Assembly: GCF_003386795.1 (NCBI RefSeq)
Contig: NZ_QTUC01000001.1
Span: 1,178,001 to 1,242,000, forward strand
Length of the DNA: 64,000 bases
Source: Thermasporomyces composti
GTDB lineage: Bacteria > Actinomycetota > Actinomycetes > Propionibacteriales > Actinopolymorphaceae
Direction: 5' to 3'
The translations under genes and the position numbers were made by a program. The notes below the pieces were generated by a model. The model searched no databases. It was not told the DNA's origin and saw only the letters and a list, made by a program, of their open reading frames with translations. This document shows, piece by piece, positions 18,956-22,536 of the stretch; the first letter of the stretch is position 1, and every line of letters starts with the position of its first letter.

Positions 18956-19184
18956 CGGGTGGAAATCTCGTTGCGGTTCGCGACGGGCCTCCGAAAGAAT
19001 CCTCGGCATGTGATGCGCTGACCCACCCCGCCGCGCTGCGCACCAGACGCGTGCCATCGAGCGTGTGCCGGCGTCACCTCGGGGGTGGGATCTCCTCGGC
19101 GCTGACTGACGTCTGGGCGTCCCTCCCCGCGCGCTGTTCGTGACCTGTCCGTCCGCCTTCCGACTCGTGGAGGCCCTCACCACC

Positions 19185-19283
19185 ATGCGTGTCCTGACAT
19201 GCGTCCGGCTCGACACGCGGCGAGCCGCGACCACGATCTGCGGGAGTTCCTGGCCCACGCCGGAGAGCCCGCCTACCGCCTGA
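19185..19283 (+). CDS. Possible 32-codon leader ORF overlapping the start of the Cfr-like gene
   Basis: ATG 19185 has GGAGG about 11 bases upstream, a better ribosome site than that of the Cfr-like ATG at 19199, which lies inside this ORF in another frame. The ORF stops at TGA 19281-19283. Its product is Arg/Thr-rich with no known family. It could couple or attenuate translation of the methyltransferase, as leader peptides do for some ribosome-methylation resistance genes. It could equally be chance. Confidence 0.3.
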   Translation: MRVLTCVRLDTRRAATTICGSSWPTPESPPTA

Positions 19284-20281
19284 CCCAGCTCCTCCATGCG
19301 GTCTATCGGCGCGGCGTCACCGAGTTCGCCCACATGGACGAGCTCCCGCGCCGGCTGCGCGACCAGCTGGCGGCCCGGTACGGCGAGTCGGTGCTGACGA
19401 TCCGCCCGATCGCCACCCAGCGCGGCCCTCAAGTCGAGAAGCTGCTGTTCGAGAGCCGGCAGGGAGCGCGGATCGAGACCGTGTTCGCGCGGTACCGCTC
19501 GGGCTGGACGTCGCTGTGCGTGTCCACCCAGGTCGGGTGTGGTCTGGGCTGCACCTTCTGCGCCACCGGCGCGGTGGGGTTGGTGCGCAACCTGACCGTC
19601 GACGAGATCTGCGACCAAGTGCTCTACGTCGCCTGCCGCGAGCGCGTCGACAGCGTGGCGTTCATGGGCATGGGTGAGGCACTGGCCAACCCGCACACCT
19701 TCGCCGCCCTGCGGCAGCTGGCCGACCCTGCCCACCACGCTCTGAGCCCGCGCCGGCTCACCGTGTCCACGGTGGGCTTCGTGCCGGGGTTGCGTCGGCT
19801 CGTCGAGGAGCACCCACGGGTGACCATCACCGTGTCCGTGCACTCGCCGTACGAGGAGGAGCGGGCCCGGCTCATCCCCCTGCAGCACCGTTTCCCTCTC
19901 TCGGAGTGCCTCGCCGTTCTGGACGAGCACGTCGCCGCCACCCGACGCAAGGCCTACCTGGCGTACCTGGTGATCGACGGGCTCAACGACACCGACGCGC
20001 ACGCCCGGGACCTGGCTCGGCTGGTCGCCCGGCGACGGCGTCCCGAGCTGTTCCACGTCAACGTCATCCCGTACAACCCCGCGGCCGGGGTCGACGCCGC
20101 CTACCGACGGCCGACGCCCGACCGAGTGCGGCGCTTCCTGCGCGTCCTGCGCGAGCGCGGCGTGCGCGCCACACGCCGCACGCAGTTCGGCGACAGCATC
20201 GACGCGGCGTGCGGCCAGCTCCACGCCCGCTACCTGGGCGATGCGCGCCAGTCGACCGGCAGCGCCGAGGCCACCGACTGA
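19199..20281 (+). CDS. Cfr-like radical-SAM 23S rRNA (adenine-2503) methyltransferase
   Basis: A 360-residue RlmN/Cfr-family enzyme. The [4Fe-4S] motif C-G-L-G-C-T-F-C gives Cys114, 118 and 121. Cys107 and Cys338 match the two catalytic cysteines (Cys105 and Cys338 of Cfr). Several blocks read like Cfr rather than RlmN: F-M-G-M-G-E-A-L-A-N, A-L-S-P-R-R-L, H-S-P-Y-x-E-E-R, L-D-E-H and Q-F-G-x-x-I-D-A-A-C-G-Q-L near the end. RlmN methylates C2 of A2503; Cfr methylates C8 and gives resistance to phenicols, lincosamides, oxazolidinones, pleuromutilins and streptogramin A. Based on remembered sequences, C8 activity is likely but untested. The gene stands alone after a 243-base gap. Confidence 0.82.
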   Translation: MRPARHAASRDHDLREFLAHAGEPAYRLTQLLHAVYRRGVTEFAHMDELPRRLRDQLAARYGESVLTIRPIATQRGPQVEKLLFESRQGARIETVFARYRSGWTSLCVSTQVGCGLGCTFCATGAVGLVRNLTVDEICDQVLYVACRERVDSVAFMGMGEALANPHTFAALRQLADPAHHALSPRRLTVSTVGFVPGLRRLVEEHPRVTITVSVHSPYEEERARLIPLQHRFPLSECLAVLDEHVAATRRKAYLAYLVIDGLNDTDAHARDLARLVARRRRPELFHVNVIPYNPAAGVDAAYRRPTPDRVRRFLRVLRERGVRATRRTQFGDSIDAACGQLHARYLGDARQSTGSAEATD

Positions 20282-22111: not shown

Positions 22112-22459
22112 CCTCAGCTGTCCTCCTCCGCCCACGGCCGATCCGAGGCGTGCGCTCATGGTAATGAACAGGTAAAGCGCCTGTCGTCACCTTGCGGAGG
22201 GATTGTCCGACCAACGGCACGCGGTGTGGCGGACCGGCGCGGCACAGGTGAAGCAGCACCGCCGGGTTGGCGGCGACCGTCTGCCGGGCACGGCTGAGCG
22301 GGATGTGGCGCACGTGGGGCGACGAAGCGTGAGCCGTGAAGGCAGCGCTGCTGTGACGGCATCGGCCACGAGGCCACCGTCGGGCACGACAGACGCGATG
22401 AGACAGGCTCGGTGACACGGCCGCCGTGGCCGCGGCGGAGTTCGACGTGTCGCCGAGAG
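22112..22459. other. Intergenic region upstream of the Bax1-like gene
   Basis: About 350 bases with no convincing gene. It presumably carries the Bax1-like promoter and the region downstream of the tRNA. Only short GC-rich inverted repeats are visible near 22420-22440. Confidence 0.5.
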
Positions 22460-22536
22460 TGCCCCCGGTGGGATTCGAACCCACAGAGTGTCACCCATTT
22501 TAAGTGGGCCGCCTCGACCAGTTGGGCTACGGGGGC
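22460..22536 (-). tRNA. tRNA-Leu (anticodon UAA), unusually short variable arm
   Basis: A 77-base cloverleaf on the minus strand. Acceptor GCCCCCG pairs with CGGGGGC with discriminator A; the T arm is GTGGG-TTCGAAT-CCCAC; the anticodon stem is GCCCA/TGGGT with loop CTTAAAA, giving UAA. CCA is not encoded. The variable region is only about 8 bases, whereas tRNA-Leu is normally class II with a long arm. Decodes UUA, a very rare codon in high-GC genomes. Confidence 0.85.

Follow-up and report, generated by a model that had tools for sequence, protein, structure and literature searches.

Does Thermasporomyces composti encode, besides its housekeeping RlmN, a second A2503 methyltransferase of the Cfr type, and if so, what would it do in a bacterium of this kind? 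The question is raised by one open reading frame in the window, by which we mean the whole analysed stretch of 64,000 nucleotides from this organism. A first-pass annotation had called the product a chromosomal Cfr-type rRNA methyltransferase on the strength of five cysteines and three sequence blocks, and had proposed that it could be an ancestral source of mobile Cfr or serve the self-protection of an antibiotic producer. Our analyses of the protein, its relatives and its upstream region (Table 1) lead us to regard it as likely that the locus encodes an intrinsic Cfr-type A2503 methylase for drug-induced resistance to peptidyl-transferase antibiotics, probably under WhiB7 control.

Table 1. 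Features of the methylase locus (positions in the window)
Feature	Position	Strand	Detail or basis
WhiB7 box GAAATC	18962..18967	+	exact match to WblC/WhiB7 motif GAAAWY (PMC7157823)
-35 element TTGCGG	18971..18976	+	TKGMNN; 3 bp (TCG) after WhiB7 box
-10 element AAGAAT	18995..19000	+	18-bp spacer; one mismatch to TANNNT
Start-stop codon pair ATG-TGA	19008..19013	+	exactly 7 nt after -10, at predicted transcript start
mRNA leader	19014..19198	+	between start-stop pair and coding start
Overlapping out-of-frame 32-codon ORF (MRVLTCVRL...)	19185..19283	+	GGAGG upstream at 19169-19173
Cfr-type 23S rRNA (A2503) radical-SAM methyltransferase, 360 aa	19199..20281	+	profiles, PDB, residues, tree
Cys114/118/121, [4Fe-4S] motif; Cys338, methyl-carrying cysteine	within 19199..20281	+	alignment

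Residues and profiles of the methylase

The window protein is 44% identical to S. aureus Cfr and contains the CxxxCxxC radical-SAM motif as well as the two further conserved cysteines. Its Cys107, 114, 118, 121 and 338 align with Cys105, 112, 116, 119 and 338 of Cfr, so the pattern reported in the first-pass annotation, including the identical number of the C-terminal cysteine, is indeed present. However, the alignment revealed all five cysteines in the RlmN of the same genome too. Hence, the cysteines alone are uninformative on the choice between Cfr and RlmN, and we dropped them as proof of a Cfr, keeping them as a necessary feature only. The blocks fared unevenly: two of them, FMGMGEALAN and Q-F-G-x-x-I-D-A-A-C-G-Q-L, agree with S. 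aureus Cfr, whereas ALSPRRL is weakly diagnostic. The A of GEA is replaced by P in 25/25 RlmN sequences, yet four of the 11 Cfr-type proteins from Bacilli also have P there; Q329 is found in 11/11 Cfr-type proteins, in 33/33 members of the window's clade (see below) and in no RlmN.

Scored at the positions that distinguish Bacilli Cfr-type proteins from RlmN, the window protein has the Cfr state at 21, the RlmN state at 2 and neither at 13. Since the RlmN comparison set was weighted to the window's own order (20 of 25 sequences), we defined a stricter set that also demands agreement with five other RlmNs; at its 12 positions the protein has nine Cfr states, one RlmN state and two of neither kind. 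NCBIfam profiles returned 409 bits for CfrAB, 407.5 for rSAM_Cfr, 406 for PRK14453 and 267 for the RlmN profile TIGR00048, all four under the curated cut-offs (530, 550, 468 and 290, respectively), and Cfr(C) itself also falls under the rSAM_Cfr cut-off (523 against 550). Because the Cfr profile scores lie below their cut-offs, we label the protein Cfr-type, or a member of a sister clade, and not a named Cfr. The PDB search gave 360 bits for the Cfr structure 9p0p and 237 bits for the RlmN structure 6fz6, and a solved structure is available at 44% identity; C2 and C8 methylation are not separable by fold.

Phylogeny and the separate RlmN

An IQ-TREE phylogeny of 70 proteins groups the window protein with actinobacterial and myxobacterial sequences in a 33-member clade (support 100/100). 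Bacilli Cfr, Cfr(C) and Cfr(D) join this clade at 100/98, and RlmN lies outside; some long outer branches of this tree are unsure. Distant and very long-branched Cfr/RlmN-like proteins of ~338 aa from Rhodocyclales/Sulfuritalea (L044-L051, L053 and L054) lie outside both families. A group of 'SAM-dependent methyltransferases' from Actinomycetia and Deltaproteobacteria is already known as sister to Cfr from the part of Kardos et al. (2024; PMC11047308) on which we draw, and the clade recovered independently here appears to be the same one. That part of the study gives the phylogeny, to which we add promoter, leader, synteny and operon context.

A separate RlmN of 412 aa (C1:629795-631030), 40% identical to the window protein, is encoded in the genome, a single contig of 4.37 Mb, and rlmN was found in 29/29 genomes of the order that were examined. 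By its tree placement, by not being the sole copy and by a TIGR00048 score of 267 against 290, the window protein does not qualify as a member of the RlmN family, with which it shares fold, cysteines and the presumed target nucleotide. The first-pass annotation had held that placement inside RlmN with no second rlmN in the genome would overturn its reading; as the protein lies outside that clade and a second rlmN was found, this is not the situation here. Sequence comparison thus confirms the open reading frame as that of a Cfr-type radical-SAM methylase placed outside RlmN. The enzyme could still be a diverged second RlmN, making only m2A2503 (or m2A37 of tRNA) and having no part in drug resistance, which would agree with the common fold and cysteines, with the bits that the RlmN profile still awards and with the diagnostic positions of neither type. 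Nevertheless, the strongly supported placement, the Cfr state at 9/12 strict positions, the presence of an rlmN elsewhere and the ABC-F genes adjoining its relatives make such an enzyme unlikely in our judgement.

With Cfr, Cfr(C) and Cfr(D), which are A2503 C8-methyltransferases, the Cfr-type enzyme of the window has in common the family architecture, the five cysteines and the strict residues just mentioned, and it differs from them in its 42-44% identity and its scores under the NCBIfam Cfr cut-offs; moreover, those genes are mobile and reside in Bacillota, whereas the window gene is chromosomal, vertically inherited and differently regulated. Two 23S genes of the genome retain intact the conserved segment holding A2503, the position within it being the one we take for A2503 from E. 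coli numbering and the conserved sequence. From these similarities we infer that the enzyme methylates A2503, most likely at C8 and on top of the C2 methyl group placed by the housekeeping RlmN, and that this modification would protect the ribosome from phenicols, lincosamides, pleuromutilins, streptogramin A and oxazolidinones. We know of no assayed member of this actinobacterial/myxobacterial clade.

Inheritance and neighbourhood of the gene

The gene is present in 6/8 genomes of the window's Actinopolymorphaceae-like family, the five other copies being 66-70% identical to the window's. The family locus has the order cystathionine beta-synthase (CBS), SGNH hydrolase, cfr-type gene, thiolase, 76-aa protein, PNPOx and Bax1, with the thiolase following the methylase in all family loci except the window; in genomes G001 and G005 additional genes lie between SGNH or SIMPL and the methylase, while in G003 and G004, which have neither the methylase gene nor its start-stop promoter, SGNH is directly followed by thiolase. 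The window neighbours include enolase, mfd, Ppx, CBS, Bax1 and CMAS, and the neighbouring ORFs that were scanned contain no transposase, integrase or antibiotic biosynthetic enzyme. A tRNA-Leu with anticodon TAA (bldA-type, reading UUA) lies 2 kb downstream of the methylase, at 22459-22536 on the minus strand; the methylase gene itself has no TTA codons.

A recently acquired mobile resistance gene might be expected to show the patchy distribution that we observed: 51 further genomes of the order yielded no copy at threshold, among 396 genomes sampled across the phylum, with five candidates per genome scored, only the window's own reaches it, and clade members elsewhere stand in unrelated contexts. 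However, the locus is the same across the family, GC3 is host-like (0.92), and 72,556 plasmids contain no relative at >=60% identity; the scanned neighbours and the plasmid search thus gave no sign of a mobile origin, in line with the first-pass annotation, and we consider recent acquisition very improbable.

Self-protection within an antibiotic biosynthetic cluster could be argued from the clade members in Streptomyces, Saccharopolyspora and myxobacteria, and a producer origin is proposed in the portion of Kardos et al. (2024; PMC11047308) used here. The housekeeping character of the conserved neighbourhood, the absence of antibiotic biosynthetic genes from the scanned ORFs of the window and the long vertical residence implied by family synteny speak against it, and we judge this role, suggested in the first-pass annotation, to be improbable at the present locus. 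Taken with the lack of mobile or biosynthetic neighbours, the synteny points to an old resident gene and supports the view, drawn from gene order and sequence, that the methylase is an intrinsic, vertically inherited gene of this family. To call the gene an 'ancestral source' of mobile Cfr is too strong, since a sister position and 42-44% identity support a shared ancestor and not direct donation; the Cfr-ancestry idea is, moreover, already in print in the portion of the literature just cited (PMC11047308).

Partner genes in relatives

In 12 horizontally placed relatives, among them Saccharopolyspora, Microbacterium, Microtetraspora and Streptomyces niphimycinicus, a bL32 (rpmF) paralog immediately precedes the methylase at a constant position (for example, L015:9716-9892), and one example of these paralogs passes the NCBIfam rpmF cut-off. 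An ABC-F-like gene lies near the methylase in nine relatives (examples are L011:11141-12751 and L006:7740-9401), in L019 only at ~9 kb; against the ribosomal-protection ABC-F model (cut-off 380), two tested examples reached 314 and 328 bits. Such horizontally spread actinobacterial relatives have compact bL32-paralog/cfr/ABC-F clusters. Given that ABC-F factors and Cfr act together (PMC10201436), these partner genes lend indirect support to a resistance role of the clade. The window contains neither a bL32-paralog nor an ABC-F partner, and a search of its genome for a close homologue of the L011 ABC-F returned only weak, partial ABC matches. In eight relatives (L009:14884-15843, L012-L014, L016, L019, L020 and L024), an alpha/beta hydrolase distantly similar to hormone-sensitive lipases and chloramphenicol hydrolase adjoins the Cfr-type gene.

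A putative WhiB7/WblC-type promoter

In published WblC/WhiB7 promoters, GAAAWY is followed after 3 bp by TKGMNN and, 16-19 bp further on, by TANNNT, and the transcript begins 7-8 bp downstream of the -10 element (PMC7157823). The site upstream of the methylase resembles the promoters of this regulon (PMC3905903, PMC7157823) in its GAAAWY box 3 bp before the -35 element, both of them exact matches, and in its 18-bp spacer, and departs from them in its -10 element (AAGAAT against TANNNT) and in a predicted transcript that begins with a start-stop pair, since the published distance puts the start at about the ATG (19008). The full pattern with NANNNT matches the 4.37-Mb genome four times, this site included, and its reversed control once; when the upstream 500 bp were shuffled, 0/300 sequences scored as high as the window site. 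A generic sigma-70 scan missed the promoter, which is unsurprising for a site that depends on an activator and has a weak -10. Another genome match lies in front of a gene resembling GNAT acetyltransferases, which are among the classes listed for the WblC regulon (PMC7157823). A perfect WhiB7-type match also occurs at L116 (C1:852740-852778, minus strand), where no obvious long gene follows immediately downstream.

An AT-hook WhiB7 is encoded in the genome (L115, C1 ~1015600; ...GVWGGELF...RPRGRPRK), with a strong WhiB7-type box some hundreds of bases upstream of its gene. By eye, the whiB7 leader contains a terminator-like hairpin with a T-run and resembles the known autoregulated, attenuated whiB7 arrangement. 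By the shuffle test, the window, L005/L098, L096 and L095 have a convincing WhiB7 box and L008 a moderate one, and the boxes of L097 and L010 are weak. The L005/L098 box overlaps the end of the SGNH coding sequence, and parts of such a box also occur in a family genome that lacks the methylase gene. Judging by this promoter layout, methylase expression is probably induced via WhiB7 when translation is inhibited. Our search of the literature available without subscription found no cfr-type WhiB7 target.

The start-stop pair and the leader

The window, five family loci and two Phytoactinopolyspora loci constitute eight basal loci, and in 8/8 of them RTG followed immediately by a stop codon lies 7 nt after a -10, though the spacers have diverged. 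The pair is ATG-TGA in six loci, ATG-TAG in L097 and GTG-TGA in L008; in L096 the 7-nt layout needs the -10 GAGAGT with a 17-bp spacer, and L005 and L098, being close relatives, count once. The strict pattern TTGNNN-N17/18-NANNNT-N7-RTG-stop has seven matches in ~1.48 million strand-bases, all upstream of this methylase gene; as the pattern was defined after the sites had been seen, the count of seven is descriptive and the informative part is the zero elsewhere. Within 1.3 kb, the layout was not found in other actinobacterial/myxobacterial relatives.

Leaderless ATG starts are common in actinobacteria, and in the same genome the GNAT-like gene has an ATG 6 nt after the -10 of its WhiB7-type site. 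The pair could accordingly be a non-regulatory by-product, for example one left over from a leaderless start or one reflecting a preference in transcription start, a possibility to which we assign a modest chance in view of the immediate stop and the constant 7 nt across all basal loci despite diverged promoter spacers.

A strong fold of the leader was seen in Phytoactinopolyspora only (L008 and L010; z -4.5 and -4.0), where the start-stop region base-pairs with both the ribosome-binding site and the start codon of the methylase gene. A ribosome on the pair would there open the gene, which would amount to translational attenuation with a two-codon leader. The stem sequences of the hairpin differ between the two species. 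The longer window leader (191 nt) has no convincing fold (z +0.9), no intrinsic terminator and no Rfam match, and a hairpin hiding its ribosome-binding site is thus unsupported. Furthermore, it is uncertain at exactly which codon the methylase starts, the best Shine-Dalgarno-like sequence lying in front of the out-of-frame ATG at 19185. Given this uncertainty and the lack of such a fold in the window, a sensor is something that we infer, and we put it forward tentatively: the leaderless start-stop pair may be a minimal, peptide-free drug sensor, possibly an attenuator responding to ribosomes stuck at initiation, which acts on top of WhiB7 promoter activation. A peptidyl-transferase antibiotic would hold the ribosome at initiation or fMet release on the ATG-TGA at the mRNA 5' end, and the leader, altered by the held ribosome, would then permit synthesis of the Cfr-type methylase. 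The idea fits the action of the pleuromutilin retapamulin, which holds ribosomes at start codons (PMC13410324). The uORF attenuators of resistance genes (erm, ABC-F; cplR, PMC10201436) likewise place a short start-codon element upstream of the gene, and the hairpins hiding the start region in two relatives of the window locus recall them; the 'uORF' of the window differs in being one start and one stop codon only, and hence there is no nascent peptide to sense. No bacterial start-stop leaders of such kind came up in the literature accessible without subscription.

Implications

The regulation of the gene, i.e., the WhiB7/WblC-type promoter together with the start-stop pair, is what we provisionally regard as new. 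It would tie the Cfr lineage, usually met on the mobile elements of pathogens, to the intrinsic WhiB7 stress response of actinobacteria, and would offer a concrete context for soil bacteria to have kept an enzyme of this type outside any antibiotic cluster. It also presents an unusually small leader element that is directly testable. Should members of the clade prove to make m8A2503, this would establish intrinsic resistance of the Cfr type in some soil actinobacteria.
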